Positions 31,995 to 50,553 are shown, numbered from the stretch's first letter. The stretch: DNA of 53,090 bases from Candidatus Saccharimonadota bacterium (GCA_025928155.1 JAICKC010000009.1:1-53090), one strand, 5' to 3'. Notes: generated by a model not told the origin, from the letters alone. Numbers and translations are program-made.

Positions 31995-32123
31995 CCCTAC
32001 CAGCCCAAATCTATCGAAATCGGTCGATAAGTAAGCGCTCGAACCTAATTCTCGAGCCCTCATCTTGACTACATGATATAACAGTAGATGGATGTCAGGT
32101 AAAGTAACGATGGAGGAAGCGGC

Positions 32124-32711: not shown

Positions 32712-32716
32712 CGCTT

Positions 32717-33292
32717 ATGGGAAGATTTTACGAAACAACTTTTTATGATCACGGTCAGATGTTTATCGGCTGGCAACTTTTGGCCAGTCCAGCAAACATC
32801 GCTGATACACAAATTGACTATGCACCGTTATTAGATGGTTTAGAGGGACGGCTGATAGATAAGGAGGACCGACGCGTACTTTTCCTTACTCTTGCCCTCA
32901 TTGGTGACCCTACTACCAAATGGGGTCGCGAAGCTCTTTCGTCCACCTCACTGGATTCGGTCATTTCTGAATTGCCGCTTGGTTACATTGAGAAGGTGCT
33001 TGATGCGCCTTACTTTGCCGCTGAGACATCACCACTGAAGGCGCGCTCCATCTTACAAATCGTCGGGCTTGCCGAGTCGATTCACTTAGTCATGATAGGC
33101 CACGATCCTAAGCTTGTACTTATGGGCGACGGACTAGGTGTGGTAGTTATTAGGTCGCTCACTGCGGTCGGCGGTCCTATATGGGATGGTGCACGTGAGG
33201 AGCTAAAGGAGTTCGGCCGTGATATAGCAGCCGAGCAGCTAGATTTGATTAGACGCCGGCTTGGTATTAAAAAACGCGGTAGGAAACGCTAA
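32717..33292 (+). CDS. hypothetical protein
   Basis: 191 aa, unrecognised. It begins MGRFYETTFYDHGQMFIGWQ, is mixed alpha/beta, and ends with a basic tail (LGIKKRGRKR) that could bind nucleic acid. No membrane segment. AGGAGG lies 14-19 nt before ATG 32717. It is tightly spaced after the SISAGRDI gene. Confidence 0.6.
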   Translation: MGRFYETTFYDHGQMFIGWQLLASPANIADTQIDYAPLLDGLEGRLIDKEDRRVLFLTLALIGDPTTKWGREALSSTSLDSVISELPLGYIEKVLDAPYFAAETSPLKARSILQIVGLAESIHLVMIGHDPKLVLMGDGLGVVVIRSLTAVGGPIWDGAREELKEFGRDIAAEQLDLIRRRLGIKKRGRKR

Positions 33293-33302
33293 TACGGCAA
33301 GG

Positions 33303-33767
33303 ATGAAAAAAGTAAAAAGAGCGTGGATATTCTACTGGGACTTTGAAGGTCTTGAAAACGGGCTGAATGTAGCCGCAGATGGCGAGGTTGTGGCTATACT
33401 TCCCGCGAATTACAGCCAAGATAGAGTTTGTTTCTTACTACAAAGACTGTTCGCGGAAAGGGTGCACACGGCATCCGAGCTGCTTCATGGCAGGTCTAAG
33501 CATCTTGAGGAAGCGTTCAACCCCAGAAGAATACACGGGGTTCCGAATACAGGAGTGGAATATGTGATGGGGTATTACTCAGGGGTCACTCCAAAGCTTT
33601 TTGCGAAATTAGTCTACAACCTAACTGAGATTGATGAAACTACTATTAGTTGGGAGGAGATTGATTGGCCGCACAAGAAGTGGATGTGTGAGATAGCAAA
33701 AGTTGAGGACTGCCCAGACGAGAAGCGTGGTCCAAAAATAACCATAAAACGCGGGTTTACGAGGTAG
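33303..33767 (+). CDS. hypothetical protein
   Basis: 154 aa, unrecognised, cytoplasmic. Starts MKKVKRAWIFYWDFEGLENG; the aromatic-rich first strand and later VMGYYSGVTPKLFAKLV suggest a small alpha/beta fold. ATG 33303 follows AAGG directly and lies 10 nt after the previous stop. Its stop is 14 nt before the convergent ATPase stop. Confidence 0.55.
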   Translation: MKKVKRAWIFYWDFEGLENGLNVAADGEVVAILPANYSQDRVCFLLQRLFAERVHTASELLHGRSKHLEEAFNPRRIHGVPNTGVEYVMGYYSGVTPKLFAKLVYNLTEIDETTISWEEIDWPHKKWMCEIAKVEDCPDEKRGPKITIKRGFTR

Positions 33768-33781
33768 ATATACCCTGGTAG

Positions 33782-36478: not shown

Positions 36479-36573
36479 TATACAACTCCTCAACAATATT
36501 TATCTATAGTCAAGGAAAGCGTAACAGATGGTTGCTGCTTCTGACAACTAAGTTTTAGTCGAGTACGAGGATC

Positions 36574-36601
36574 TTGAGAGGAGTTTTTCATTTGCTACAA
36601 T
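36574..36601 (+). promoter_or_regulatory. promoter of the P-loop kinase gene
   Basis: TTGAGA (36574-36579), 16-bp spacer, TACAAT (36596-36601), 6 nt before ATG 36608; implies a leaderless mRNA. Confidence 0.6.
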
Positions 36602-36607
36602 ACGACT

Positions 36608-37135
36608 ATGCCCCTTATTTATGTAACAGGAATTGAAACAGCCGGTAAGACAAGCTCTTGCAACGAGCTGAAGCGGCTTGGCTATGAAGCTCACGACATC
36701 GACGATGGTATCGCCCACTACTACAACAAGGTAACTGGCAAGCAGAGTGAATGGTTAAGCTCGGAAGAGGCCCGCACACAAGCATGGCATGACCAGAACG
36801 ACTATATGATGGATCGAGAGCAAGTCGAGAAATTCAAGGAGGCCGCCAAAGATAAGACCATTTTTCTTTGTGGTACTACTCAGAGCGACGAAGTAGTCTT
36901 AGATCTATTCGATAAAGTTATCTATTTGTACCTTAATGAAGCCACCCTAAAGCAAAGAATGAACAGCCGACATGGTGGGGAGTTCGGGTTTGCCCCGCAT
37001 GAGCAGGAAGCAATCCTCGGCTGGCACAAGTCTTCAGAAGCAGCCTACCGCAAGCGTGGAGCTACGATGATAGACGCTACGCAGCCACTTAATACAGTAG
37101 TAGAAAAGATAATCGCGGCAGTTGTGGGCGAATAA
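36608..37135 (+). CDS. P-loop nucleotide/shikimate-kinase-like protein
   Basis: 175 aa. Walker A GIETAGKT at residues 8-15, HDIDDG (~31-36) as the second acidic site, then IFLCGTTQSD and a lid-like LKQRMNSRHG. It resembles small-molecule kinases of the AAA_18/adenylate-kinase-like type, but the substrate is unknown. ATG 36608 is 6 nt after a -10 box. Confidence 0.7.
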   Translation: MPLIYVTGIETAGKTSSCNELKRLGYEAHDIDDGIAHYYNKVTGKQSEWLSSEEARTQAWHDQNDYMMDREQVEKFKEAAKDKTIFLCGTTQSDEVVLDLFDKVIYLYLNEATLKQRMNSRHGGEFGFAPHEQEAILGWHKSSEAAYRKRGATMIDATQPLNTVVEKIIAAVVGE

Positions 37136-37185
37136 AACGCTACAAAGCATGGCAGGCCTTACAAACGTGTAAAGAAACAAATAAG

Positions 37186-38094
37186 TTATAGTCCCTTTAG
37201 AAAGGTTTTGAGCCGTTCCATGTGGTGTCCTGTACGGTCAGGCGCTCTATCTATCGCCCACCGTACCTTGTCCAAAGCATCCAGTAGCTGTAAGCTTTTA
37301 ATTTCCTCTCGGATAACTTCGTAATCTTGTCGTATCATGCCGTAACCGCTGAGCAATGCAGCGTACTTTTCACTGTCCTCATCGAGGCTTTCTTCTATAA
37401 TAACGGCTAGATCGTAGTGGGGTACAATGTGCGCCTCCGCAGAGCCCCAATCAATAGCGTACGGCACACCATCATCTGTAAGAATGGTGTTAGCTAAAGA
37501 ATAGTCGCCATGATTCAAGCCAAACGAAAACTTCTTAGCCAAGAGGTTCGTGAGTAGGTCTTGCAGCGCAATAGCCTGCTCTTTAGTCAGATCGATACTT
37601 TCGATGAACGAGTTGTCTGTGAGGGCCTTAATGTTGCCATCAACGTATTGTTGCCAATCTACACTGCTACCGGACGTGATGGCTTCTAAGTTATCGCCGA
37701 AGCCCGCGACCGGGGTGCTATGGATCAGGCGTAGATTTTTTCCTAAGGCATACCACGTATCATTACTGTCAGCTATTGCATCGCCATTCGACCCATGCAC
37801 GAACTCAAGCAACATATAGGCACAGGCTTCGTTGCTACCGACGCAGATTACTTCTGGCGTCGGTACGCCACATTTATGAGCCGCAACACTACACCATTGT
37901 TCTTTTTGGTAGCGGCCAAGCTCGGCAGGCTCATTCAGGCGTAGCACTGCTCTGTGTTGGTCAGCGGTCACTTCGTATACTTGGTTGACTTCACCACGTC
38001 CTTCGATTAAGCGCACATCTGACAGCTCGGTATGGAATTGTGCTCTAACAAGTTCTGCGGCTATTTCTTTGGCTTGCTCAAGGGTAGTTGGCAT
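37186..38094 (-). CDS. APH-family phosphotransferase
   Basis: 302 aa. Catalytic loop GLNHGDYSLANTI and metal motif YAIDWGSAEAH are clear; the N-lobe has YEVTADQHRAVLRLNEP. It is the second kinase of this type in the accessory region (the other at 29.6 kb) and the two are not obviously close. The substrate is not predictable. ATG 38094 gives a normal N-terminus; TATGCT lies 11-16 nt upstream. Confidence 0.85.
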   Translation of the reverse strand: MPTTLEQAKEIAAELVRAQFHTELSDVRLIEGRGEVNQVYEVTADQHRAVLRLNEPAELGRYQKEQWCSVAAHKCGVPTPEVICVGSNEACAYMLLEFVHGSNGDAIADSNDTWYALGKNLRLIHSTPVAGFGDNLEAITSGSSVDWQQYVDGNIKALTDNSFIESIDLTKEQAIALQDLLTNLLAKKFSFGLNHGDYSLANTILTDDGVPYAIDWGSAEAHIVPHYDLAVIIEESLDEDSEKYAALLSGYGMIRQDYEVIREEIKSLQLLDALDKVRWAIDRAPDRTGHHMERLKTFLKGL

Positions 38095-38121
38095 TTATTT
38101 AGCATAGCACTACGGGGGTCT

Positions 38122-38508
38122 CTAGATGAGAAGCATATGCGCCCGAAAACTAAACACTTCATCCTTAGCCACAATCACATGATCTTTTAGATCAATGCCA
38201 AGAATTAATCCCGCCGCCACTAACTGCTGCGTGGTGGATATGTCCGCTTCACTGGGCTTTGCATAACCAGACGGATGGTTGTGTGCAATGATGACTGACG
38301 CTGCCCGGTCTTTAATTGCTCCTGCGAATACATCACGGGGGTGTACCATAGCTGAGTTAAGTGTGCCTATTGCTACTGTCCGTCTACTAATAACCTCACC
38401 GACTGTATTCAAAGACAGACAAATAAAATACTCCTGACGCCTACAGCGTATGAACTTTAAGCGAGTGAGTACATCGTCTGTAACCCCTAATGATTTACGT
38501 CTGCCCAT
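38122..38508 (-). CDS. RadC-like JAB-domain protein
   Basis: 128 aa. It has the JAMM metalloprotease-like motif: Glu in TVGEVISRR, then IAHNHPSG and PSEAD (H-x-H ... S-x-x-D). This is the MPN domain of RadC proteins, common on mobile elements, without the N-terminal HhH. ATG 38508 (MGRRKSLGV) is chosen; the frame opens earlier (38595) but that stretch looks unrelated. Confidence 0.85.
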   Translation of the reverse strand: MGRRKSLGVTDDVLTRLKFIRCRRQEYFICLSLNTVGEVISRRTVAIGTLNSAMVHPRDVFAGAIKDRAASVIIAHNHPSGYAKPSEADISTTQQLVAAGLILGIDLKDHVIVAKDEVFSFRAHMLLI

Positions 38509-38596
38509 TCTGATGTCTGCTGAATTAAGGTTATAAAAATACAGCCTCGCGGCTGCATTACGCCGTGGATAGCTTAGTATATTTACAGAACACAAA

Positions 38597-38720
38597 ACCC
38601 GCCGCTAGCGGGCTTGCGCCCCATGTCCGTTTCCAGGCATGACCAAACTAGGATGCTAAACGACGGGTTTAGTACCTAGTTTGGATTTGCAACCGTGCCA
38701 CTGCAAACAGTGGTTTAGGT
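38597..38720 (+). other. dense hairpin block with alternative pairings
   Basis: CCCGC/GCGGG (~38600-38614), CCAAACTAGG/CCTAGTTTGG (~38643-38684) enclosing CTAAAC/GGTTTAG, and CCACTG/CAGTGG (~38698-38713). AAACCCG at the left also complements CGGGTTT inside the second hairpin, so two folds exclude each other. It lies between the RadC-like gene and an XRE regulator. It could be an origin or oriT-like locus of the element, or a regulatory RNA. Confidence 0.55.
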
Positions 38721-38778
38721 TTATTATTCATACGCCTCATAGAGAGACTTATTTATAGGATACATCATACATAAACTA

Positions 38779-38807
38779 TTACAAACTGTAAGTGTTACAA
38801 GTTGTAA
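38779..38807. promoter_or_regulatory. tandem palindromic operators before the XRE gene
   Basis: TTACAAACTGTAA (38779-38791) and TTACAAGTTGTAA (38795-38807), centres 16 bp apart, 24 bp before ATG 38831. Likely autoregulatory sites of the XRE protein. Confidence 0.65.
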
Positions 38808-38830
38808 GTATTCAGTACTGTTTAGGGGTA

Positions 38831-39058
38831 ATGGGTACTACGAAAGAAGCACAATACCTCTCCGCTTTCGGCAAACGGGTTGCGGAAGTGCGACGAAAAA
38901 AGGGCTTGACCCAAGAACAACTCGCCGAGAAGTCGGGACTAACACCGCTCACTATCGGGTTTATTGAGCAAGGCCGGCGATGGCCGCGTATCGTCACGAT
39001 CCATAAGATTGCGGACGCTATGAAAGCTCCTGTTGATGAGTTGTTTAAGGGGCTATAG
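38831..39058 (+). CDS. XRE-family HTH regulator
   Basis: 75 aa single HTH domain: FGKRVAEVRRKKGLTQEQLA, SGLTPLTIGFIEQGRRWPRI, then MKAPVDELF. It is the size of a phage/element repressor. The start at 38831 follows AGGGG. Two palindromes upstream are likely its operators. Confidence 0.9.
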   Translation: MGTTKEAQYLSAFGKRVAEVRRKKGLTQEQLAEKSGLTPLTIGFIEQGRRWPRIVTIHKIADAMKAPVDELFKGL

Positions 39059-39114
39059 TCTGACCTCGGTAATGCCTCTAAAAATTATACTGAGCACAGA
39101 TTCAGGAGATACTT

Positions 39115-39678
39115 ATGGACCTATCGTCATTTAAAGAATACACACTTAACCTCAATACCCTCGGCACTAAAGAACTTCAAGCATTTTATAGAGAATCGGC
39201 TCACGGCCAGAGTGTGGATGGGGGTGAAGTTACAACGTACTTCCGGTTGTTCCCAAAGGAAAAAGTCACGAGTATAGAAATGGCGTATGCCATAGAAGTA
39301 CTGGTCGAAAAGCGCTACTATGTACAACTCACTGTCGATAATGACGGTAGACGCGTATACGATGAGAATGGAAAGCGCCTTGACGGTTCATCTACTGAGT
39401 CGGAGCTCCCCAATGCCTTAGAGCATCTCGACAACATACAAGTCATCGATCCGTTGCCGTGGCAATCTGAACGTAGCGGCATCCAGTCTGTTGAGAGTAT
39501 ACTTCGGGAAGCGGCCGATCTCGATGTTGATCTTGATTATAGAACCGGCAAAGTATCAAATATCACCCGAGCACAGGTGTTAAAAGTTATTGGCGTACAA
39601 AGGGATGTGCTGGATATAGATGCTATTCTTGAACTAGATGATGCCTATTTACTGCTCCATTGGGACAGTACGGCATAG
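39115..39678 (+). CDS. hypothetical protein between two XRE genes
   Basis: 187 aa, acidic and cytoplasmic, unrecognised. Contains VESILREAADLDVDLDYRTG and IDAILELDDAYLLLHW. It lies 56 nt after one XRE gene and 15 nt before another, so the three probably form one unit. GGAGA lies 8-12 nt before ATG 39115. Confidence 0.6.
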   Translation: MDLSSFKEYTLNLNTLGTKELQAFYRESAHGQSVDGGEVTTYFRLFPKEKVTSIEMAYAIEVLVEKRYYVQLTVDNDGRRVYDENGKRLDGSSTESELPNALEHLDNIQVIDPLPWQSERSGIQSVESILREAADLDVDLDYRTGKVSNITRAQVLKVIGVQRDVLDIDAILELDDAYLLLHWDSTA

Positions 39679-39693
39679 AGCGGACGGTTACAT

Positions 39694-39906
39694 ATGAGCA
39701 CTGAGACTATCAAGAGGATTGGAATAAGACTACGAGATATAAGACAGAGTAAGCACCTGACCCAGTTAGAAGTTGCCGATAAAGCAGGTATTAGTACAAA
39801 TTACTATGCACGGATTGAGCGTGGGGACACTGGTATATCAATGGAGATTTTCGAGAAAGTCGTCAAGGCGCTTAAGGTACGATCGTCAGATGTTCTGCCC
39901 TTTTGA
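39694..39906 (+). CDS. second XRE-family HTH regulator
   Basis: 70 aa: IGIRLRDIRQSKHLTQLEVA, KAGISTNYYARIERG, then VKALKVRSSDVLPF, a minimal HTH_3 domain. It is convergent with the creatininase-like gene 12 bp away. Confidence 0.9.
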   Translation: MSTETIKRIGIRLRDIRQSKHLTQLEVADKAGISTNYYARIERGDTGISMEIFEKVVKALKVRSSDVLPF

Positions 39907-39918
39907 GGATTTGTATGA

Positions 39919-40629
39919 CTATTCTAGCTCGCTCTTAATTTTCTCAACCAAGTTGCCCGAATAGAGAGCCAATAACTTTTCGCCAATTTCCGGTGTCGCT
40001 ACCCACTTTGGATGAGCGTCAATTACCCCTTCGGGTCGCACCTCAATGACCTTCCTATCCCATGCAAAATCAGATATCGGGTGTTTTTCGTCGCTTAGCT
40101 GTGGCTGTTTTGTTATCGTCGGATCAACCGCAAGCATTAGGGCGACTTCGGTGTTCCCGGCGTGGTCGTCAGTTGGGCCGTCTAGTAATTTCTCGGCAGC
40201 CTCATCAGTGCCGTCATCGCCAAACGTTATTTGATCCATATGGATATCGGCATAGTCGGACGCCTTCTCGGTCAAGAATTGATCGATGACAGGCTTATTG
40301 CCACCGTGCCATGAGACAAAAAGAATCACGTTGGCCCTATCTTTAATGCTGTCAACGATATCAGTGATCATGGCGTATAACGTTGATTCCCGTAGTGAAA
40401 CACTTCCGTTAAAGCCTAACTGTTGCCAGCACGGACCGAAAGGTGTCACCGGCAGAAATACAACCTCAGGCAATTGTTTCTCTACACGTTTTATCAGCTC
40501 AATCTGTACTAGATAATCCGTGCCTGTAGGCCCATACGGGCCATGTTGTTCCACTGAGCCGAGAGAAACGATGTACGCTCGCTTATCGGCTAGTCTTTTG
40601 TCGTTGGTGTTAAGCTCGTGTAAAAACAT
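39919..40629 (-). CDS. creatininase-family amidohydrolase
   Basis: 236 aa. Signatures: SLGSVEQHGPYGPTGTDYL (the E-x-H-G-x-x-x-P-x-x-T-D metal-binding box) and FVSWHGGNKPV. Family members hydrolyse creatinine or act in cofactor/peptide metabolism (MftE-like). The substrate is unknown. It follows the P1 peptidase gene (29-bp gap), so both may handle amides or small peptides. Confidence 0.85.
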   Translation of the reverse strand: MFLHELNTNDKRLADKRAYIVSLGSVEQHGPYGPTGTDYLVQIELIKRVEKQLPEVVFLPVTPFGPCWQQLGFNGSVSLRESTLYAMITDIVDSIKDRANVILFVSWHGGNKPVIDQFLTEKASDYADIHMDQITFGDDGTDEAAEKLLDGPTDDHAGNTEVALMLAVDPTITKQPQLSDEKHPISDFAWDRKVIEVRPEGVIDAHPKWVATPEIGEKLLALYSGNLVEKIKSELE

Positions 40630-40657
40630 GCCATCCTTTCATAATAAGCGAGGACAC

Positions 40658-41683
40658 TTATTGGTAATCTTTAGCCGAAGGCAACACATCCTTGTATGCC
40701 CCTTCAAATTCCACCGAGTCGGCACTGCGGCACGCATCATAAATACTTTCTTGTACTGCTTTCGCAGCCGCGTGCCCGATAACGTCAACCGTGAATCCAG
40801 TGTGTCCAGGCTCTTGGAAGAACTCACCGAACTTATTGAAGGGTTGTTTAATCTCCTGGGTCGAAAATACAAACACCGTATCGCCATCCTGTGACGTATG
40901 TACAGGATGGATGGCTCGAACGTGTCCATGGGTGGCGAAGTGAGCGAGCCGTTCGTAGTTTTCTCGAGGGCCAAGATCCACATTCGTACCAACGATTGTA
41001 ATTGTTGTGTTGGCAGGGTCGCCAGTAATGAAATCAATCATGTCGTCGAAGTCTTTGAACTTCTTTTGTTCATCCCGATTGCCCGCCAGGATAGTTCCAT
41101 CAGGCAGAACAACATTGCCTATGGCATTTAGGACAGTTAGCGCACAAACCATAACCCCACCCTTTAGGTCGACGCGTGCATTGCCAACGCCGGTTTTCAT
41201 GCCGCCACTCTTAGTGCCTTTTTCCAGCCACTGGAACTTACCAACTGAAGTACCGGTGCCGGCTCCGACATTACCGCTCTGCGCCGGCTCGGTCGAAAGG
41301 TTCTGGTATGCTTCACGCCCATACTTCGGATCGTACTGCCCAATGCGCGTGCCTTGGTCAAACACAATAGCACCGCTTAGGTTTGGGTTGATAATGGAGG
41401 CTGCTTTCTGGCCGATACCGTCTTCAATCATGGCTTGCATGATTTCCGAGGCGCTCATGAGTCCCGTCAAGCTACCGCCTGCGATAAAGAAGCCCTGACG
41501 TGTACGCTCTGCACCAATTCGCAGACTATCCGTATGGAAGCTGCCGATGTCACCACCATAACCTTGGTATGCAGCTGGATATTCTTTGTCGAAGAGTACG
41601 AGCGTGCAGCCAGTTAGTTTGTCTAAGTGAGTCGAATGTCCTACGCGGACACCGGTAAGGGCTGTGAGAGTGTTGTTCTGCAT
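40658..41683 (-). CDS. P1/S58 family peptidase (DmpA-like)
   Basis: 341 aa. It begins TALTGVRVGHST, contains GNVGAGTGTSVGKFQW and GGMKTGVGNARVDL (just before the expected autoproteolysis site) and VMVCALTVLNAIGN. This matches DmpA/L-aminopeptidase enzymes that mature by self-cleavage and remove N-terminal residues from small peptides or amides. The stop of the upstream small ORF lies 2 bp before its start, so they are cotranscribed. Confidence 0.85.
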   Translation of the reverse strand: MQNNTLTALTGVRVGHSTHLDKLTGCTLVLFDKEYPAAYQGYGGDIGSFHTDSLRIGAERTRQGFFIAGGSLTGLMSASEIMQAMIEDGIGQKAASIINPNLSGAIVFDQGTRIGQYDPKYGREAYQNLSTEPAQSGNVGAGTGTSVGKFQWLEKGTKSGGMKTGVGNARVDLKGGVMVCALTVLNAIGNVVLPDGTILAGNRDEQKKFKDFDDMIDFITGDPANTTITIVGTNVDLGPRENYERLAHFATHGHVRAIHPVHTSQDGDTVFVFSTQEIKQPFNKFGEFFQEPGHTGFTVDVIGHAAAKAVQESIYDACRSADSVEFEGAYKDVLPSAKDYQ

Positions 41684-41685
41684 TT

Positions 41686-41901
41686 CTAATCCTTAGGTTT
41701 ATCAAAATTCTTTAATGCTTCTTCTATAGCTTTGTTGAGGTCTACCGACTCGCCGTGCGCGACGGTCTTGTGGGCGCCAACAGACATCACTTCTAAGATA
41801 TGGATTGCGATTTCGGGCATCGCCTTGTCAGGGTGAAAAATCCTCAAATACTTGAGCACCTTATCGATATTCTGTTCGTTAATCTCATCACTCGCCGGCA
41901 T
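41686..41901 (-). CDS. 71-aa hypothetical protein
   Basis: Acidic, helical, unrecognised: MPASDEINEQNIDKVLKYLR then VDLNKAIEEALKNF. It is tightly coupled to the P1 peptidase (2-bp gap), so it is probably a small partner. Confidence 0.6.
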   Translation of the reverse strand: MPASDEINEQNIDKVLKYLRIFHPDKAMPEIAIHILEVMSVGAHKTVAHGESVDLNKAIEEALKNFDKPKD

Positions 41902-41926
41902 AGTTATCTTGAGTATATCACCCCTG

Positions 41927-42424
41927 CTACACCAGTAGCTTATCTATCCCGATGAATCGCACCATTTGCCATGCGAGCGGTACGGACTCTATGCGACGCA
42001 TAACCTCGCTGCTATTACTTTGCGACAAGATATTGAGTGAACCTTCGTAGAGAACTCGCCGGTCAAGTATGGCTACCTTGCGATGATGGTTACCCGTGTA
42101 AAGAACTTGTACCCCCATGTGTTGCAGCTTCGATATGGCTTCAGTGGCATCGTCTTGCCAGAAGCCTTCATCGTGCGTTCTTGGGTCACGTGTGTTTATG
42201 GCGATCCGCACTCTACGGGATTTTAGCTTCTCCAACGTCGGTAAAAGTGTCTTTAACCGACGGCCAGTAATGAATGGGCACTCAATAATCACTTCACTAT
42301 GACAGTTCGCCAAGTCTTTCATGAAGGCTGGGTAGAAGCTATCTTGGTCGTAAAGTTTTGAGGCAACTAATTCGGCTAGCTGTGATGAATGGCCGAGTAG
42401 GCTAAACATTGCGATCGCCCTCAT
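41927..42424 (-). CDS. phospholipase-D-like single-HKD protein
   Basis: 165 aa. Has IIECPFITGRRL and the HKD motif HHRKVAILDRRVLYEGSLN. One HKD suggests a nuclease that dimerises (Nuc-type). The start is uncertain: ATG 42424 (MRAIAMF) is used, ATG 42409 is possible, and the frame opens at 42472. Just upstream a short open stretch in another frame (EEIGCIEHNGRILIV) hints the gene may have lost an N-terminus. Confidence 0.7.
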   Translation of the reverse strand: MRAIAMFSLLGHSSQLAELVASKLYDQDSFYPAFMKDLANCHSEVIIECPFITGRRLKTLLPTLEKLKSRRVRIAINTRDPRTHDEGFWQDDATEAISKLQHMGVQVLYTGNHHRKVAILDRRVLYEGSLNILSQSNSSEVMRRIESVPLAWQMVRFIGIDKLLV

Positions 42425-42522
42425 GTGCCTGGTCAACAATAAGGATTCGACCGTTGTGCTCGATACAACCAATTTCTTCCAGCCTAAGGTGTAACTTGAC
42501 CAAATTCGGGTAAATTGAGTTC

Positions 42523-42624
42523 CATCTGAGGCGGAGTGGGCTCACCACCTGCAAATTACAGAGGTAGCGTAAGCTGCCTCTTTTTGTTTGCGCTAGGTTA
42601 ACTCTATTATTTTGGATCGATTCC
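42523..42624 (+). repeat. intergenic repeat, copy A (diverged)
   Basis: GGGCTCACCA (42538-42547), ATTACAGAGG (42555-42564), hairpin AGAGGTAGC/GCTGCCTCT (42560-42581) then TTTTGTTT, CTCTATTATT (42603-42612) and T-arm-like GGATCGATTCC (42614-42624). Same order as in copies B and D, but the 5' part is not clear. Confidence 0.65.
42560..42589 (+). terminator. terminator-like hairpin of repeat copy A
   Basis: AGAGGTAGC/GCTGCCTCT with GTAA loop, followed by TTTTGTTT. Strongest of the repeat-family terminators; no plus-strand gene precedes it. Confidence 0.7.
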
Positions 42625-42663
42625 CCTAGGCTCTGCAGAAGTGCTCCACCCCTCTTGTACACA

Positions 42664-42692
42664 TTGACAAATTGTCGTGTTTATGATAATAT
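42664..42692 (+). promoter_or_regulatory. promoter of the 150-aa gene
   Basis: TTGACA (42664-42669), 17-bp spacer, TAATAT (42687-42692). Similar spacing and downstream sequence at 51744. Confidence 0.85.
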
Positions 42693-42836
42693 GCATAAAC
42701 TTCGTTGAGGCCGAATACTACCTCCGAAGTACTTTAACAAGCTCTCTGTTACACCTCGGCTGAGGAATAATCTACACGATGATTCGTGTATGTTATCCCT
42801 CATCCGAGAAAATCCAACCCAGGAGAAATAGAAGAG
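42693..42836 (+). promoter_or_regulatory. structured 5' leader of the 150-aa gene
   Basis: First hairpin: CTTCG-TT-GAGG (42700-42710) with CCTC-CGAAG (42721-42729), also present at 51780 with a U-A to U-G change. Second: CTCGG/CCGAG-type rod around 42755-42806 capped by TACACGA/TCGTGTA. AGCTCTCTGTT (42740-42750) is complementary over 11 nt to the 3' region at 43288-43298. Confidence 0.6.
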
Positions 42837-43289
42837 ATGAAAATCACGAGGCTCGACGCCCAGAACGTCCAGGATGGCGGCTCCGAGGTGCTCGTCACCG
42901 ACAGCAAGCTGGTTAACCTGTGGACGCTTGGCATCGCCAACGACGAGACGGGAACTTACACGACCCACATCGTCTTCAACGGCACCCCAGACGAAGCACA
43001 CAGGCTCTTCGACAACCTCTTCCACAACTACGTCGACGGCTGCTGTCAGAATCTCGGCTGCGACGCCCAGGTCATGTACATCGTCGGCAAGAAGGTCATC
43101 AAGACTGCCCTCTACGGCTGGGACGAGACCAACTACACGATGAAATTCATGGTCTACTGTGACGGTAACGCGTCAGCGATTCTCGCCGAGCTGAAGACCG
43201 ATCTCATTCCGGGAGGAATCTCGATCATCGTGGTCGAGCCCAGCATCCTGTACGGGAACAGTTGCGTCGTCAACATCATCACCGACTAA
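42837..43289 (+). CDS. 150-aa hypothetical protein with structured UTRs
   Basis: Unrecognised. Begins MKITRLDAQNVQDGGSEVLV; mixed alpha/beta with three Cys (VDGCCQNLGC), no membrane segment. Codon use is strongly biased to C/G-ending codons (AAC, GTC, ATC), unlike neighbours, which suggests high expression or transfer. AGGAG lies 13-17 nt before ATG 42837. The transcript has a long folded leader and two 3' hairpins. It is one of four such genes (others at 50.2, 50.7, 52.0 kb). Confidence 0.6.
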   Translation: MKITRLDAQNVQDGGSEVLVTDSKLVNLWTLGIANDETGTYTTHIVFNGTPDEAHRLFDNLFHNYVDGCCQNLGCDAQVMYIVGKKVIKTALYGWDETNYTMKFMVYCDGNASAILAELKTDLIPGGISIIVVEPSILYGNSCVVNIITD

Positions 43290-43403
43290 CAGAGAGCTGC
43301 CAACGGGCGGGACAAGGTACTTGTCGTGAGACATTATAAATTCCTTGTTCCGCCCGGCAGATCTCCAAGGACATAAGCAACGACTTGTGTTTTTAGAGAG
43401 CTG
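43288..43403 (+). other. 3' hairpins of the 150-aa gene
   Basis: AACAGAGAGCT (43288-43298) complements the leader. Hairpin 1: CGGGCGG-G-ACAAGG (43304-43317) with CCTTGT-T-CCGCCCG (43343-43356). Hairpin 2: CAGATCTC (43358-43365) with GAGAGCTG (43396-43403), whose loop resembles the one at 50519-50542. Confidence 0.65.
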
Positions 43404-43410
43404 AATCATC

Positions 43411-43634
43411 GGGTGTGTATCAGTGACGGGATGGACGTATAGCTATTGGAGAGACTTGCTTCATATTCTGTCCAGATAATTCTTCTCCATCTAGCTGCTT
43501 TTTCCTTGAGCGGATGTAAACTTTTCTGCGTACGAGTCACCATAAGCAAAATAACAGAGGTAGATATGTAGTAATCCGTATCGCCTCTTTTTTGTTTGCC
43601 ATACATCCCGCTCTGTTATTCGGGTTCGGCTCCC
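43411..43634 (+). repeat. intergenic repeat, copy B
   Basis: GGGTGTGTAT (43411-43420), TGTAAACTTTTCTGCG (43515-43530), GAGTCACCATAAG (~43534-43546), AATAACAGAGG (43550-43560), AGAGG/CCTCT with T-run (43556-43592), CTCTGTTATT (43611-43620), T-arm-like GGGTTCGGCTCCC (43622-43634). Confidence 0.8.
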
Positions 43635-43672
43635 TGCTGCCCTTGCGGTGCGCATTGCTTTGTTATAGCTAT

Positions 43673-44515
43673 CTAGCTGCCATTCTTTGTGTCATCGGCA
43701 TTTCCATAAAATGCAAACGGTGCCTCCGTAAGCGTTGCCCACATTTGATCTCCATATGACCAATGCCACCATTCCGACGGATTGACGGAGAAGCCGCTTT
43801 CTGTTCCGAAGATAGTTCCTCTCATGATCCAATAGAAAAGGCGGCGGTTGCGTCGAGCAAGCCGCTCCTTATCGTCTGGTGTGTCGCGCTGCTCGTAAAA
43901 GTCGGGTCGAGCAGTGTTTCCAAGATCCGCATCGTGATGGCCCATGAATATGTCTGAGTTGGGGACAAATAGCTTCGAGTTCTGTTTATAGCGCAGCGAG
44001 ATATCTATGGCCGCACCTGTCGCATGTGGCGAAGGTGAACTTTGTGTCTTGCTCGGTTGCGCTATCATGTTGTCACGGCGCTTTAACACCTCCTGCTGGC
44101 TCAAGCCTGGAAACTGGGTGCGAATGAGCCGCGGAAAAACGTCGCTATATAGCATGGTCTGCGTCTGTCGCGACCTCAAACCCTCTTCAATGAATAGCTC
44201 GACCGGGCTGCCAAGTAAAGCTGAGACTGCTTCCGAAGCCTTTAGCGCATCATTTATGAGTGCCAGTCGCTGTGCGATAGTCTTCCGTATGAGCACCGTT
44301 TGACTAACTTCTGAGATTGGTTCAACTGTTGCCGCGTTGGTGTGTGAGTAGTAGCTCTGACCGGTAATCCCGTAGGCGCCCGCATCTACTAGCGGCTCCT
44401 GGTTACGCTCGTCATCGAGCCGTAGCTCATATTTACGATAGCCTTGCTTGCGCAGGAGCGCTTGTGTCTGATCGGGCACGGGACGGTCGAGGAGGCTCGC
44501 GTCAAAATGGGACAT
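43673..44515 (-). CDS. M15-family D-Ala-D-Ala dipeptidase (VanX-like)
   Basis: 280 aa. Metal/catalytic motifs: SPHATGAAIDISL (S-x-H-x-x-G-x-A-x-D) and SEWWHWSYGDQMW (E-x-W-H). EEGLRSRQTQ (arginine element) precedes these. The W-H-W-S-Y-G-D-Q ending is VanX/VanY type. No signal peptide, so it acts in the cytoplasm, e.g. on D-Ala-D-Ala precursors. It overlaps the upstream gene by 14 nt. Confidence 0.85.
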   Translation of the reverse strand: MSHFDASLLDRPVPDQTQALLRKQGYRKYELRLDDERNQEPLVDAGAYGITGQSYYSHTNAATVEPISEVSQTVLIRKTIAQRLALINDALKASEAVSALLGSPVELFIEEGLRSRQTQTMLYSDVFPRLIRTQFPGLSQQEVLKRRDNMIAQPSKTQSSPSPHATGAAIDISLRYKQNSKLFVPNSDIFMGHHDADLGNTARPDFYEQRDTPDDKERLARRNRRLFYWIMRGTIFGTESGFSVNPSEWWHWSYGDQMWATLTEAPFAFYGNADDTKNGS

Positions 44516-45506
44516 GCATAAGCTCCAGCTTTGTGGGTCTCGACGCTGTGGGGCCTTTGCCGTGCTGCTGCTCTTTTACTGCGTCCCGCAATCGAGTAGC
44601 TGCATCAATGTCGGATTTCAGTTCCTGCAAAATCTGACTGGGTTTGAAATCCTGACCGCCGTATGCCGGGGCGTATCCGATCGTTTCGACGTTGGCACCG
44701 GTAGTCAGTATTATGTCGCGTACAGCATCAAAGTACTGGGCATATCGATAGATCTCCGACGTCACGAAGAGTATATCTGTGCCGGGAGCTATCCCATCCC
44801 CTTCTACCCGCAGCAGGAACTGATACGTATCTGAGGTATGTGCCCGCCTTGCCTTGCGATGCGGTGGCGCGCTGAGGCATAGAACAGGCGTGCCGTCCTT
44901 CTTTTCGTAGTGGGCTATTCGCCACTTTGCATTGATAATTTCGTATGACTTGCTCTTCACAAGTTCCTTGCCCAGCAGTGTGACGATAGCACCCTTACCA
45001 AGATCGTACTCAGTCTGAGCGCCCGGTGCGTAGCTGGCTGTCTTAGTTTGCTCAGGCTTCAGAACCTCGCGTTCACAGCCGAGGAATACCAACTTGTCGT
45101 ACGTGACGTCCTGCTCAAGTGCATAGCGCAGACGATTGTACGGCGACATATTGGCGCCGCCGAGGACTGCAAGGATGTCGTAGTGTGTGAGCGTTGCGGA
45201 CGAACTATCGGTCGCGCCTAAGTACGCCGATTCATCCCGAACAATTTTGCCGAGTTCAGACCCTTCTGCGTCCATTGGCTGGCTGGTTGTCACCTGGTAG
45301 CGTTCCAGACCCTTACGAAAATCCCAGTATTTGGCAGCAATGGCAGCGAGACGATCGAGGCGCTTATCGGGTGATGCTATGTCGATGTAGCTTGGGTCGT
45401 ATTGAGCAACAATCCGCTCAACTCCCGGATTGTTTATAAAGCGAGCAAGGTAGTCGGTTGCATGAGCGCGGGCGTGTTCGAGCCATTTTGGTTGCTTTTG
45501 TTTCAT
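44502..45506 (-). CDS. hypothetical protein, possibly DUF218/YdcF-like
   Basis: 334 aa. ILAVLGGANMSPYNRLRYAL and KLVFLGCEREV resemble the glycine-rich loops of DUF218 (YdcF/SanA/ElyC) domains; ILFVTSEIYRYAQYFDAVRD resembles the second half. That assignment is weak. ATG 45506 is preferred (MKQKQPKW); 45557 is possible. Overlap with the M15 gene implies a cell-wall or D-amino-acid role. Confidence 0.5.
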   Translation of the reverse strand: MKQKQPKWLEHARAHATDYLARFINNPGVERIVAQYDPSYIDIASPDKRLDRLAAIAAKYWDFRKGLERYQVTTSQPMDAEGSELGKIVRDESAYLGATDSSSATLTHYDILAVLGGANMSPYNRLRYALEQDVTYDKLVFLGCEREVLKPEQTKTASYAPGAQTEYDLGKGAIVTLLGKELVKSKSYEIINAKWRIAHYEKKDGTPVLCLSAPPHRKARRAHTSDTYQFLLRVEGDGIAPGTDILFVTSEIYRYAQYFDAVRDIILTTGANVETIGYAPAYGGQDFKPSQILQELKSDIDAATRLRDAVKEQQHGKGPTASRPTKLELMHVPF

Positions 45507-45763
45507 AGGGTATTTGTTGCGTACAGCATACCAATATAATGCTTGCGTTGCCAGCAATGAGGGAGGTGCGTCCTTCAGTGCCTATATAACTACCCCACGT
45601 ACCAACTTGAGTAGGTGTATTGCGACCGGCGTAGCATGTGCGTCCCTCTGTTACGGGGTTGTGTGCTATGGTTGTGGTTCATCTCGCAGGGACACGAAGG
45701 GCTATGTGTGCTCATGCTGATGGCCCCAAAAAGAGTGAAATCAGTACTCTCTAACGCTGCGAG
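45507..45763. other. 257-bp spacer, no gene seen
   Basis: It has no convincing ORF or promoter; it contains CCTCTGTTAC around 45644, reminiscent of the repeat-family arms. Confidence 0.3.
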
Positions 45764-45952
45764 GGGTGTGTATGGCCGATGGGAGCCCCCCTACTGTCTG
45801 GATCGGTTCTGCTCATAGGCTGCTTCAATAATCTGCCTCCCCCTGAAGGTTTCTTCTTTGAGTTGGTGTAAACTTTTTTGCGTCTGGGTCACCATAAGAA
45901 AATAACAGAGGTAAGATTACGAATTGTAGTCTTACCGCTTTTTCTTTTCCAG
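45764..45952 (+). repeat. intergenic repeat, copy C
   Basis: GGGTGTGTAT (45764-45773), CTGCTCATAGGCTGCTTCAA (45809-45828), GGTGTAAACTTTTTTGCG (45865-45882), GGGTCACCATAAG (45886-45898), AATAACAGAGG (45901-45911), then the hairpin GGTAAGA/TCTTACC (45910-45936) with a T-rich tail. It lacks the CTCTGTTATT/T-arm end. Confidence 0.8.
45910..45950 (+). terminator. terminator-like hairpin of repeat copy C
   Basis: GGTAAGA (45910-45916) with TCTTACC (45930-45936), then GCTTTTTCTTTT. Confidence 0.7.
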
Positions 45953-45988
45953 GTTTTGTATCCGTTCGTGGAGTGTGAATCCCCTACG

Positions 45989-46480
45989 CTACTTTTGTAG
46001 CGGATCACCCTTCTCATCGAAGTTGGTTTTGTAACCCATCTTGTGTGCCGCTAGGACTAGGAGGCGGCGGTCGCCTTCGCTGGTACGCCCTGCCCCACCA
46101 AGTGAGCATACTACGTTGTCATCGTCGTCCTTCACCTGAATGCCGCCATCCCATGGTGTGAACTGTGGGATGACATGCTGCTGCAATATCATATCGGCCT
46201 CACTCCAGCTGCCGTCTTTGATGCGGTCGGCGTGTTTTTTGGTATCTGCGTTGTATAGCAATACTGTGAATGCCTTGTGAATGGCAAAAGTGGCACTGGT
46301 AGGCTTCACCGTATCCATGCAGCGGTACGCTGTAGGTACGCCCATGACTCCCTGGTCGGCTTTCATGCAGCAGATGGCCATCGGTTGCGGGCCCTTGTCG
46401 TCGGTAGCTACGGTTCTGGCTAGTTCCACGGCATAGTCTACTAATTTGGCGGCATCTTCGTCTGTAAACGATCTCTTCAT
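45989..46480 (-). CDS. GlcG/HbpS-like protein
   Basis: 163 aa from ATG 46480. SFTDEDAAKLVDYAVELA starts the fold; KADQGVMGVPTAYRCMDTVK, FAIHKAFTVLL and SLGGAGRTSEGDRRL follow, as in GlcG/HbpS (DUF336) proteins, which are small oligomers binding heme or metabolites. The frame is open further upstream (46786), but that stretch overlaps the divergent cupin gene and is not used. Divergent from the cupin with a 48-bp spacer. Confidence 0.65.
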   Translation of the reverse strand: MKRSFTDEDAAKLVDYAVELARTVATDDKGPQPMAICCMKADQGVMGVPTAYRCMDTVKPTSATFAIHKAFTVLLYNADTKKHADRIKDGSWSEADMILQQHVIPQFTPWDGGIQVKDDDDNVVCSLGGAGRTSEGDRRLLVLAAHKMGYKTNFDEKGDPLQK

Positions 46481-46528
46481 TACGTCGTAGTATAGCAAGA
46501 CTCCGATAGCTGTCTTATTATTAGACCT

Positions 46529-47014
46529 ATGGTAGACACAACTTACTCCCCCGAGATACAAGCCCTTGTTGACGCGTGGCGACCGTACCTTGATGGTATC
46601 GAAGATTGGCAAACACTTGTTGAGGGTGTTGAGCCTAAAGCTACCGGCTGCGGCCCGGTCCATGAGCTCGATAACCCGCTCGGCCGTTCTGATGAGAGCT
46701 TTGCAGTGGCAGATATGCGTGGCGTTAAGTTCGCACAGCCCCACTACCACGCCAATGGTGAAGTCGAGGTTTATCTTGTACTGCACGGTTTAGGCCAGGT
46801 GGTAGTTGGTAGCGAGGTACTGCAAGTGGAAAAAGGCAGCGTAGTTGTGACACCATCCGGTACGACGCATTACGCCTTGCCAGACCCAGAACAGGGTTTG
46901 GTATTGGCCGTGGTCAATACACCTCCATTTAATCCTACGAACAACATAGACGTCACAGAAACTGACCCCGCTCACAACTACGATCATGAGCTATTTGGAC
47001 GGCTGACTAAGTAG
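46529..47014 (+). CDS. cupin-domain protein
   Basis: 161 aa. Cupin motif 1: QPHYHANGEVEVYLVLHGLG (His, His, Glu metal ligands); motif 2: PSGTTHYALP. It is a single-domain cupin, function unpredictable. TATTAT (46516-46521) lies 7 nt before the ATG: leaderless transcription is probable. Confidence 0.85.
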   Translation: MVDTTYSPEIQALVDAWRPYLDGIEDWQTLVEGVEPKATGCGPVHELDNPLGRSDESFAVADMRGVKFAQPHYHANGEVEVYLVLHGLGQVVVGSEVLQVEKGSVVVTPSGTTHYALPDPEQGLVLAVVNTPPFNPTNNIDVTETDPAHNYDHELFGRLTK

Positions 47015-47021
47015 TACCTTG

Positions 47022-47232
47022 GGGGTGTATACGGCACGGGAGTATAGATTACCCCTTACCCGGCTTGCTGCTCATACACTGTTCCGATAATCCCTCCCCA
47101 GCGAGTTGCCTCATCTCTGAGCTGGTGTAAATTTTTTGGGACACGGGGCACCAATTGATAAATAACAGAGCTACGTCTACCGCACCTCTTATTCGTTACT
47201 GTACCCATACCTCTGTTATTTGGTTCGACTCC
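47022..47232 (+). repeat. intergenic repeat, copy D
   Basis: GGGGTGTAT (47022-47030), CTGCTCATACACTGTTCCGA (~47068-47087), GGTGTAAATTTTTTGGG (47123-47139), GGGGCACCA (47145-47153), AATAACAGAG (47161-47170), CTCTGTTATT (47211-47220), T-arm-like GGTTCGACTCC (47222-47232), which is identical to the tRNA-Glu T-arm over 11 nt. Its short hairpin is weak. Confidence 0.8.
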
Positions 47233-47287
47233 TGTTAGGTGTGGATGGTATGATTACCCTTGAAGCAAACGTCTATCAAGGAAGTCA

Positions 47288-48211
47288 ATGACCAAGTCTC
47301 AACACCCAACAATTTTTGGTTACGGTATCATTCTCTTGTCGACAGGTTTATTCGGTAGCTACGGAGTGTGGGCAAAGCTGATGGGGCCAACATTTAGCCC
47401 TTTCTACCAAACGTGGGTACGCAGCCTACTCATCATTGCTATCATGCTGCCATTCATGATAGCTGGCAAGAGCTTTCGGAAAATCGATCGTAGGGACTGG
47501 TTGCAAGTAGGGGTGTACATTATATTTTGTGTGTGTACACAAGTCCCGCTTTACTATGCTTATAATCATGCTCCACTCGGTATGGTGAATCTCATTTTCT
47601 ACTCAATGTTTGTAATCGCGGCATATGCGGTCGGGCGCTTCTATCTTGGAGAGACGATTTCAAAAGTAAAAGTAGTATCGATGCTGCTCGCTTTTCTGGG
47701 TTTGGTAATCATATTTGGCGTCTCGGTTTTATCTTTCGCACCATTAGGCCTCTTACTCGCTGCCTTTAATGGTGTGGCCAGCGGTGGAGAGGTGTCGTCA
47801 AGTAAAAAAGTTTCGGAGAGGTATCAACCTGCCCTTTTAGCTTTCTGGGGCTGGGTCTTTACTTTCTTATTACATTTGCCCTTATCCCTCCTTATTGGAG
47901 AGAAACAGGTCATACCCTCCTTCGATCATGCTTGGCTGTGGCTTATTGTCTACTCGGCAGTAAATGCAGCGGCATTTTGGTTGGTGCTCATAGGTTATCG
48001 GCGCGTGGATGCAACCATAGGCAGTCTTATCGGTCTTATGGAGGTAGTCTTTGCAGTTCTCTTTGGGGCAATTATATTTAACCAAGCGCTAACACTGGGT
48101 GTATATGTCGGTGGCTTAATGGTTCTGGTTGCTGCAATGTTGCCAGACCTGATTAATCTTTTGAAGGGAGACCATACACCGGTGCCAGTAGAACCGGTAC
48201 GTGACCTCTAG
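47288..48211 (+). CDS. EamA/DMT-family transporter
   Basis: 307 aa, ten transmembrane helices in two EamA repeats: first repeat starts GIILLSTGLFGSYGVWAKLM, second begins GLLLAAFNGVASGGEVSSSK. DMT proteins export amino acids, nucleosides or sugars. ATG 47288 has AAGGAAG upstream. The substrate is unknown. Confidence 0.9.
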   Translation: MTKSQHPTIFGYGIILLSTGLFGSYGVWAKLMGPTFSPFYQTWVRSLLIIAIMLPFMIAGKSFRKIDRRDWLQVGVYIIFCVCTQVPLYYAYNHAPLGMVNLIFYSMFVIAAYAVGRFYLGETISKVKVVSMLLAFLGLVIIFGVSVLSFAPLGLLLAAFNGVASGGEVSSSKKVSERYQPALLAFWGWVFTFLLHLPLSLLIGEKQVIPSFDHAWLWLIVYSAVNAAAFWLVLIGYRRVDATIGSLIGLMEVVFAVLFGAIIFNQALTLGVYVGGLMVLVAAMLPDLINLLKGDHTPVPVEPVRDL

Positions 48212-48374
48212 ATTCCACTTCCTGCTGGGGTGGCTCTGACCGGACGTACTCCCTTGAGTAGACCGTACCATTCGTTGACTTCAGGTAAGGTACGACTCCA
48301 ATTCAAACTGAGATGGCTTACGAAATCAAAAATCCAGAGGTGAGGTTGTATAATTCTAGCTTCGTCCTTTTGTA

Positions 48375-49631
48375 TTACGAAGCAGTTCTGCTGGGTGGGT
48401 GAGAAGAGGTCTTGCGTGAGGTGGCAAAGAAGTAAAGGCTAACTAGCACAAATGCCATAATCCCGATGACGCTACTCCAGCGTAGGGGTATCACAATCTT
48501 ACCTTCTACGGCAAAAACTCCTACTAAACTCACTGCGCCAGCGGACAGTATTTTGCCCGCGAACGCATACAATGACCCCACTGTGGCACGGGCTTCACGA
48601 GGCGCATGGTGCTGGATTTGCGATTCATTATGCACCGACAGCATGCGTAAGACACGCGTAAATACAAACATGCCCATCACTGCCCCTACAGTGCCGGCCC
48701 AAAAGCTGGCGACAAACAGGCAGAGAAAGCCGCTGGCGATCAGTGGTTGGTAGCGCGAAATTTGTGTTTCTGCGTGGTGCATCCACCAGTACAGCCCAGC
48801 CGCAGAGATACTGCCTGCCGCTATCAGGAGTGGTACCGCGTGAAGTGGTGCGCCGACCTGCTGGTAATACTGGGGCAAGTATTCACCGAGCATGCTCATA
48901 AGCCCCTGTATAATCACGGCGCCGACCAAAATATGCCGTAGTACTGGGTGAGTACGAACGGCCTTGAAGGCGCTGGAGAGAATTGTGGGTCGAAGTTCAA
49001 TCTGGACTTGCCGGTGTGTGGTAGGCAGGCTGAGGGTAATGCCTAGGGAAACGACACTGACAGCCATACTCGCCAGTAGCAAGATAGTATAGCGTGGGCC
49101 AATGGCAAACGCCGTCAAACTGCCGGCAAAGTAAGCCAGCATGGTAAAGGCGCTGCTGCGGGCATAGATTTTACCAAAGATTGTACGGTGTGCATCACTG
49201 AGCGACTCATACAGATATGCTTGGGATGCCCCTGAAAGAAACGCCTCGCCCACGCCCCATAATAGGAAACCAGCTAAGTAGCCGAGAAAATTGGGAACAA
49301 CAAGCCACACAGTAAACGTTGCCAGCTGGAGTGCTTGTCCTATTACTAGCGCCCATTTTTTAGAGAACTTATCGGCGATTATACCCGTGGGCACTTCGGC
49401 TATCACTGACGCCACCATCCAGATAGCTAAGAGTGCCCCCACGCCGGCGGCCGATACATGACCCCGCTGACCAAACATGATGACGTAGAACGGATAGATG
49501 ACGATGAATTCCGTCATAAAGGCTAGCAGGAACATCCGTTTGGCAATCGGCGGCAAGGATAAGCCTGGTGATTTGTTTGGCCGGAAGGAGCCAAACGTGG
49601 TGGCAAGGAAGATTTTTCGGAATAACGGCAT
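48375..49631 (-). CDS. MFS transporter
   Basis: 418 aa, about twelve transmembrane helices. The A-loop EVPTGIIADKFSKKWAL matches the MFS motif between helices 2 and 3. Efflux or uptake substrate unknown. ATG 49631 is chosen since GGGAGAG lies 4 nt upstream; 49646 is an alternative. Confidence 0.88.
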   Translation of the reverse strand: MPLFRKIFLATTFGSFRPNKSPGLSLPPIAKRMFLLAFMTEFIVIYPFYVIMFGQRGHVSAAGVGALLAIWMVASVIAEVPTGIIADKFSKKWALVIGQALQLATFTVWLVVPNFLGYLAGFLLWGVGEAFLSGASQAYLYESLSDAHRTIFGKIYARSSAFTMLAYFAGSLTAFAIGPRYTILLLASMAVSVVSLGITLSLPTTHRQVQIELRPTILSSAFKAVRTHPVLRHILVGAVIIQGLMSMLGEYLPQYYQQVGAPLHAVPLLIAAGSISAAGLYWWMHHAETQISRYQPLIASGFLCLFVASFWAGTVGAVMGMFVFTRVLRMLSVHNESQIQHHAPREARATVGSLYAFAGKILSAGAVSLVGVFAVEGKIVIPLRWSSVIGIMAFVLVSLYFFATSRKTSSHPPSRTAS

Positions 49632-49738
49632 AAGCTCTCCCATCATAGCAGCTAGACTGTGCTAGCCGTAGTCAATACGCTGCCCTTGAGCCCGTATAAG
49701 GCCAGGCATTGTTTGAGCCGCTAACTAAGCAGTGGATA

Positions 49739-49895
49739 GGGTGTGTATGCTGCATGGGAGTATATGTATTTCTCTGCTCATAGAGTGTTCCAATTATCCC
49801 TCTCCGTACCACCATCTCGACTTTCTGGTGTAAACTTTTCTGCACACGGGTAGCACAAGAAGTTACAGAGGCGAGCGTGGGCCGTCTCCTTTTGT
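49739..49895 (+). repeat. intergenic repeat, copy E
   Basis: GGGTGTGTAT (49739-49748), CTGCTCATAGAGTGTTCCAA (~49774-49793), GGTGTAAACTTTTCTGC (49827-49843), GTTACAGAGG (49862-49871), hairpin GAGGCG/CGTCTC (49868-49888) with CTTTTG tail. The distal CTCTGTTATT/T-arm is not recognisable. Confidence 0.75.
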
Positions 49896-49971
49896 TGGTT
49901 CTTCGGATTCTCCCTGCTATGTAGTTTTATCCTCTCAGTTGTATGCGTCTGCGCCGCCGCTGTTAGAGATA

Positions 49972-50415: not shown

Positions 50416-50553
50416 CAGAGAGCTTCCGGAAATGGAGGAATTGACGTAGCGTCGAATTTGGCAATCTAGCCACTTTTCTTCACTATTTCATTTCCCTTCA
50501 TTTCCGGCAACTCACTAAGGATATTAGCCAAGGCTTGTGTTTTTAGTGAGTTG
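50416..50553 (+). other. 3' hairpins of the 60-aa gene
   Basis: CAGAGAGCT (50416-50424) complements the leader at 50045-50053. Hairpin 1: CCGGAAATG (50426-50434) with CATTTCCGG (50499-50507). Hairpin 2: CAACTCACTAA (50508-50518) with TTAGTGAGTTG (50543-50553); loop as at 43366-43395. Confidence 0.7.

Follow-up and report, generated by a model that had tools for sequence, protein, structure and literature searches.

Probable attR-type junctions with detached large serine recombinase tails bound gene cassettes behind tRNA genes in Candidatus Saccharimonadota

A 53,090-nucleotide stretch of DNA from a Candidatus Saccharimonadota bacterium (GCA_025928155.1, JAICKC010000009.1:1-53090), which is contig 25 of a 1.3-Mb genome and is called the window here, carries five copies (A to E) of a repeated intergenic element between positions 42,523 and 49,895. 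The copies are very probably attR-type junctions, produced when large serine recombinases (LSRs) integrated circular DNA at the 3′ ends of tRNA or transfer-messenger RNA (tmRNA) genes and thereby built arrays of gene cassettes. At the level of sequence, this is supported by the anatomy of the junctions, by coding conservation of a recombinase tail within them, and by an LSR of one family (type II) that is split in the window and unsplit in a relative. Further support comes from LSRs and tails of another family (type I) placed in the same elements and from cassette exchange exactly at the junctions. An earlier note on this DNA had offered two readings of the copies, as recombination sites of a cassette array or as the 3′ ends of a repeated RNA.

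Anatomy of the junctions and their minus-strand peptide

Copies B (43411), C (45764), D (47022), and E (49739) lie on the plus strand and share their motifs in the same order, and the modules between copies hold one or two genes in mixed orientation, all as the earlier note had described. Copy A (42523) shares only the tRNA-end and terminator part with the others, and its arm is different and separately identifiable. More copies were present on three further contigs of this genome.

Each junction is made up of about 100 nt coding for a conserved C-terminal peptide on the minus strand, a tRNA-like 3′ end (...CACCA), and a terminator. The upstream arm of the copies is therefore the protein-coding part, while on the right stands a tRNA 3′ end reading GTCACCA, as in tRNA-Glu GGGGTCACCA, followed by the terminator. 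All five junctions are on the plus strand with their tails on the minus strand. Junction A (42410 to 42590) has a detached type-II LSR tail, a tRNA-like end reading CTCACCA, and a terminator. Junction B (43411 to 43593) has a type-I tail at 43445 to 43543, followed by GAGTCACCA and a terminator; junction C (45764 to 45946) has its type-I tail at 45797 to 45895, followed by GGGTCACCA and a terminator; and junction D (47022 to 47194) has its type-I tail at 47065 to 47154, followed by GGGCACCA and a terminator. Junction E (49739 to 49896) is made up of a decayed type-I tail (49771 to 49857), a degenerate core (GTAGCAC), and a terminator.

The arm preceding the common GGTCACCA encodes the peptide MVTRTQKSLHPLKEKAARWRRII in B, MVTQTQKSLHQLKEETFRGRQII in C, and LVPRVPKNLHQLRDEATRWGGII in D and is decayed in E. 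A peptide profile that drew on no sequence from this genome was compared with the window in six frames. B, C, and D matched at independent E values (iE) of 1e-12 to 2.5e-10 and E matched at 0.005, while the next match stood at 2.6. Divergence among the tails was 0.46 at codon position 3, compared with 0.22 and 0.22 at positions 1 and 2. The KSLH codons near the core were an exception to this pattern, with position 3 conserved too, as expected of a recombinase half-site laid over coding sequence. The core GTG stands in the same frame in 8/8 type-I LSRs and in the tails. Many LSR genes of tail-bearing genomes end within tRNA genes on the opposite strand, so that the last LSR codons are antisense tRNA. 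The peptide is very probably the detached C-terminal tail of an LSR gene, severed on integration at a tRNA 3′ end. Copies B to E carry the putative tail of a second LSR family, type I, distinct from the type II found at A.

The frame and stop codon are conserved in nearly all copies, always as short open frames, which would also suit a free-standing small gene of about 35 amino acids on every cassette, such as one for a recombination directionality factor. This alternative is improbable. The frame starts at the tRNA-derived core, with no consistent ribosome-binding site seen ahead of it. In type II, the corresponding peptide forms the LSR C terminus in unsplit relatives, and the frame at the core is also the one used by type-I LSRs. 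The small-gene candidate was largely rejected once an unsplit LSR was found.

A terminator-like hairpin closes each copy, and this favors the note's other proposal, in which the copies are a repeated noncoding RNA, or its 3′ end or terminator. The proposal did not hold up and is very unlikely to be correct. The copies fold no better than shuffled sequences (z-scores of −1.16 to +1.00), nothing in Rfam matched them, and the opposite strand shows a codon-like pattern of conservation. Moreover, a terminator of the same kind follows an intact tRNA-Glu in genome G006 and the tmRNA in genome G076. A structured noncoding RNA family was accordingly rejected as a candidate, there being neither a conserved fold above background nor an Rfam match.

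The type-II island and type-I recombinases at tRNA genes

The type-II LSR gene of the window (26684 to 28426, minus strand; Pfam PF00239 and PF07508) enters tRNA-Glu(CTC) (26657 to 26733, plus strand) antisense. This tRNA gene is the predicted integration target (attB/attL), and the 3′ end of the LSR gene is replaced by antisense tRNA (...ELVTPRGVEPLIFRMRT*). In the Saccharibacteria contigs L149 and L151, type-II LSRs run on into the C-terminal tail, and no tRNA is present. Junction A encodes a peptide homologous to the C terminus of the unsplit L149 LSR (0/2000 shuffles). In L149, a PLD-family gene follows directly after the LSR and its tail and overlaps the tail stop codon. The homologous gene of the window (41930 to 42409, minus strand; 60% identical) likewise has its ATG overlapping the stop codon of the detached tail. 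It begins at that stop (42409), at the island end opposite the LSR and 15.8 kb away from it.

The rest of L149 is collinear with the island, in circularly permuted form; among the matching genes is a type IV secretion system coupling-protein/HerA-like ATPase identified by Pfam (33782 to 36496, minus strand), homologous to L149 4537 to 6819. No terminal overlap was seen in L149, so its circularity is not shown. The contiguity of LSR, tail, and PLD gene in L149, together with the circular permutation, indicates that 26734 to 42547 is an integrated type-II LSR island of 15.8 kb, reaching from tRNA-Glu to junction A, and that junction A is its attR. This arrangement also occurs in genome G007 and, at tRNA-Val, in the Levybacteria contig L150.

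Type-I LSR homologs lie antisense at tRNA-Gly in 8/14 loci examined, and most genomes with such an LSR have a type-I tail a few kilobases farther along on the same strand. In genome G083, for example, the type-I tail is 6.8 kb from the tRNA, with no junction in between. About 10 further genomes have a type-I LSR and a tail on one strand of one contig. Both LSR families feed the same arrays, since the left boundary of a widely shared cassette (described below) is a type-II junction in genome G187.

Recombinases of this kind were also seen at other sites. In the genome of the window, locus L132 (G000:C5:26100-46000) has a third LSR family at tRNA-Lys(CTT), with three tandem junctions spaced 1.9 and 3.0 kb apart; their tails, WRAIVDAIATS, WRAIVNAIATA, and WRASVYVIATE, are in frame with an LSR ending ...SESWRA. 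At L174 (G400:C44), a type-I LSR lies not at a tRNA but at TGCACCA within a coding sequence that appears to be FtsK-type; this may be a secondary integration site. At L043 (G001:C26, array strand 160 to 200), the core of a type-I LSR is the junction-type CTGCTGCACCA and not that of tRNA-Gly, and the short C terminus reads LVQQSC*; this is apparently an LSR element behind another unit at the contig end. No relatives of two of the LSRs were found in scans of viral contigs. Named contigs with the closest relatives of the LSRs point to Candidatus Saccharibacteria as the host group.

Cassette turnover, proposed mechanism, and known systems

A sequence model of the copies matched 38/99 genomes, this one included, and several of the 38 show a series of same-strand matches spaced about 1 kb apart. 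With the peptide profile, tails were found in 76/393 sampled genomes of the class and in 13/380 genomes of a phylum sample, five of those 13 lying outside the class. At least two junctions are present at 20 loci. The arrays are headed by tRNA-Gly(GCC) in 23 genomes and by tRNA-Glu, tRNA-Arg, or tmRNA in others; at one array locus the nearest upstream tRNA is tRNA-Leu. A comparison of 142 genomes showed extreme variability directly 3′ of tRNA-Gly(GCC) in Saccharibacteria, where several distinct LSR-like ends are found repeatedly; this flank is a class-wide integration hotspot.

Units shorter than 4.5 kb (n = 61) have a median length of 1104 bp and mostly lack an LSR, and the longest open reading frame (ORF) is on the array strand in 52/61 of them. 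Genome G076 has six units of 0.85 to 1.4 kb behind its tmRNA and no match to the Recombinase family. Its tmRNA and the legible inner junctions each have the same terminator-type end next to them, while the last junction lacks it. Cargo across the arrays includes dehydrogenases, NUDIX and other hydrolases, methyltransferases, trehalose synthesis genes, transporters, immunity and toxin genes, and many genes of unknown function.

The earlier note had suggested that modules might be gained or lost exactly at the copies, and cassettes proved to be exchanged across genera and not fixed in position. A cassette with a 220-amino-acid gene is shared by genomes G018, G023, G040, and G187 (four genera, two families), with protein identities of 84 to 89%. 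A BrnT-type cassette is at position 2 in G019 and at position 1, directly at the tRNA, in G048 and G025. Wherever the left boundary was inspected, DNA homology of common cassettes begins at CACCA or a few nucleotides from it. Since homologous cassettes start at CACCA and differ in array position across genera, modules turn over at the copies. Congeneric species can also hold unrelated cassettes at the same tRNA locus: G026 and G049 have common genes upstream of tRNA-Phe/tRNA-Gly and no clearly related cassette gene. These comparisons support the reading as recombination sites of a cassette array. In G040 (L205, 1440 to 1590), a second copy of the tRNA-Gly 3′ end lies about 130 bp downstream of the first, directly before a shared cassette; this scar of integration retains a longer piece of the tRNA and may stem from another integrase.

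The units might instead be old LSR islands that lost the LSR and most genes by deletion, the cassettes never having been mobile by themselves. Tails within arrays are diverged, one unit (L050) retains a 42-amino-acid LSR remnant at its left end, and some array heads hold large LSR islands. Yet L050 is the only LSR-less unit with such a remnant among the loci compared, and pure decay of LSR islands was rejected on this account. Cassette left ends also recur across genomes and target genes, intact small cassettes are common to two families at different array positions, and the strand bias of the longest ORFs runs against decay as well. We consider this origin unlikely, though it retains some weight.

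On the note's reading, such an array would resemble integrons in its logic, with sites unlike attC. Sites of the attC kind served by a tyrosine integrase would be in keeping with the tandem one- or two-gene cassettes, with recurrent sites that all point one way, and with the mostly co-oriented ORFs. However, the array-head recombinase is a serine recombinase, the anchor is a tRNA or tmRNA gene and not attI, and the genome's three Phage_integrase (PF00589) matches are all on other contigs, with none on the contig of the window. The recombinase class refutes integron membership, as no IntI-type tyrosine recombinase with attI accompanies the arrays, and the fold values given above speak against attC sites with a conserved single-strand fold. 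We give the integron reading almost no credence.

For junctions left by LSRs, the following mechanism is proposed. attP would sit within the last ~35 codons of the LSR gene, so that integration would sever the C-terminal tail. The LSR body would then be fused antisense to the tRNA, and the tail would remain beside the displaced tRNA 3′ end at the other extremity of the insert. A tandem array would grow as further insertions entered behind one tRNA, all in the same orientation. Most units are small cassettes that lack an LSR, having a terminator of their own on the left and an LSR tail, or attP half-site, on the right. LSRs may move such cassettes in trans, by integrating cassette circles, or by accretion, in which several units are excised together. 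On the accretion route, any array attR could pair with attL, and an LSR element might therefore excise with a variable number of cassettes. A circle might acquire the tail of whichever junction took part; since either junction would supply an in-frame tail, tails would be expected to remain coding, which matches the observation.

Several points weigh against this interpretation. The left ends of LSR-less cassettes, compared by eye, are unlike the type-I LSR left half-site; this mismatch argues against simple movement in trans and makes a standard attP in cassette circles hypothetical. The core common to tRNA and junction is only 5 to 8 nt. Unsplit type-I LSRs were not found in class- and phylum-wide tail searches, and no type-I LSR was detected in this genome, so that its type-I cassettes may now be immobile. 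The assemblies compared are mostly drafts, and the evidence for excision and integration by the recombinase is comparative, resting on the circularly permuted contig L149, with no excision observed.

The closest published case is that of the Dehalococcoides ssrA islands. These have the LSR DsiB and lie in tandem downstream of a gene of the tRNA/tmRNA type, with repeats of the 3′ end of that gene as their boundaries; dsiB overlaps attL at its 3′ end and has no clear stop, and about half of the islands lack the integration module (McMurdie et al. 2011, PMC3146451). The authors suggested that DsiB may work fully only on the circle or beside an island with the needed 3′ fragment (PMC3146451). The present arrays resemble them in the LSR, the tandem islands, the target 3′-end repeats, and the recombinase overlapping attL. 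Thus, an LSR with Resolvase and Recombinase domains is at the target-proximal end (the window LSR and the type-I LSRs at tRNA-Gly), its 3′ end overlaps attL in a tRNA or tmRNA gene, and tandem units are bounded by target 3′-end repeats, which are as short as the core. The Pfam matches of the window island included no second small serine recombinase and no ParB or Mom homolog, although DsiA, ParB, and Mom were not searched for directly. The targets here are tRNA-Gly, -Glu, -Arg, and -Lys and tmRNA, and most units are cassettes of about 1 kb with one or two genes, compared with islands of about 10 kb. In addition, each junction here has a coding-conserved C-terminal tail, which an unsplit relative identifies as the absent 3′ end of the recombinase gene; for the ssrA islands this was only proposed.

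The note's view of the arrays as a candidate for an undescribed system is only partly right: the recombinase class and tandem tRNA/tmRNA islands have precedents (PMC3146451), to which the present arrays add protein-conserved LSR tails and small cassettes. The finding bears on the question, open for ssrA islands, of why integrated serine recombinase genes lack their own stop codon (PMC3146451). The missing 3′ fragment is identified here in a phylum other than that of Dehalococcoides, conserved as protein and joined to the recombinase in unsplit relatives, which suggests that integration switches the enzyme to a tail-less form. Detached tails are also a means of locating integrated LSR elements and of placing their ends exactly. 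The literature covered, which comprised open-licence papers and no preprints, contained no report of such arrays in Saccharibacteria or Patescibacteria.

Other systems share parts of this design. Staphylococcal cassette chromosome (SCC) elements use LSRs (CcrA/B/C), insert at the 3′ end of a conserved gene, and form composite tandem elements, some of them without a recombinase. The arrays are like them in all these respects, but the SCC target is the protein gene rlmH and SCC units are tens of kilobases long; to our knowledge, no split recombinase tail occurs in SCC. Membership in SCC was rejected because the targets here are tRNA and tmRNA genes and not the rlmH 3′ end used by Ccr. Integrons and clusters of attC sites lacking integron-integrases (CALIN) are alike in outline: the anchor is fixed, the cassettes carry one or two genes and all point the same way, the sites recur, and there are arrays without a recombinase. 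They differ from the present arrays, which have a serine recombinase, sites without a fold above background, a tRNA anchor, and terminators at cassette left ends. Archaeal elements of the Sulfolobus spindle-shaped virus (SSV) type integrate at a tRNA gene and partition the integrase gene in two, so that there too integration splits the recombinase gene; the SSV enzyme is a tyrosine recombinase split near its N-terminal end, whereas the serine recombinase here loses a C-terminal tail.

Patescibacteria have tiny genomes, and their gene gain and loss are poorly understood. A tRNA 3′ end with a detached LSR tail offers a searchable platform marking exchange of one- and two-gene cassettes across families. 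If LSR-less cassettes do move in trans, the arrays would be a serine-recombinase counterpart of the integron. We tentatively suggest such a counterpart across Patescibacteria, a proposal that we hold to be conceivable but somewhat doubtful. It would have a tRNA/tmRNA platform and cassettes of one or two genes, each with a terminator at one end and an interchangeable LSR C terminus at the other; the LSR would be completed only on excision, with the tail taken from the junction used.

Gene content of the window

Four cassettes lie between the junctions, all on the plus strand. Cassette 1 (42548 to 43542) has one gene (ORF 42786 to 43289) that belongs to no Pfam family. Cassette 2 (43543 to 45894) has an M15 D-Ala-D-Ala dipeptidase-like gene and a gene for 351 amino acids, both on the minus strand. 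Cassette 3 (45895 to 47153) has an HbpS-like gene (minus) and a cupin gene (plus), and cassette 4 (47154 to 49856) has genes for an EamA transporter (plus) and a major facilitator superfamily transporter (minus). A 50-bp hairpin is found twice, with 78% identity, at 43354 to 43403 (the end of cassette 1, before junction B) and at 50504 to 50553 (past junction E); the latter possibly marks a further decayed cassette after E.

Within the type-II island, LOOT RNA (RF03000, 76.9 bits) was found at 38610 to 38721 (minus strand), directly upstream of a RadC gene (38122 to 38595, minus strand). Because it adjoins radC inside the island, LOOT RNA may be a component of type-II LSR islands. The island cargo also includes a pyrroline-5-carboxylate (P5C)-reductase-like gene and an amino acid kinase gene (30376 to 31802, minus strand), a possible proline biosynthesis pair.

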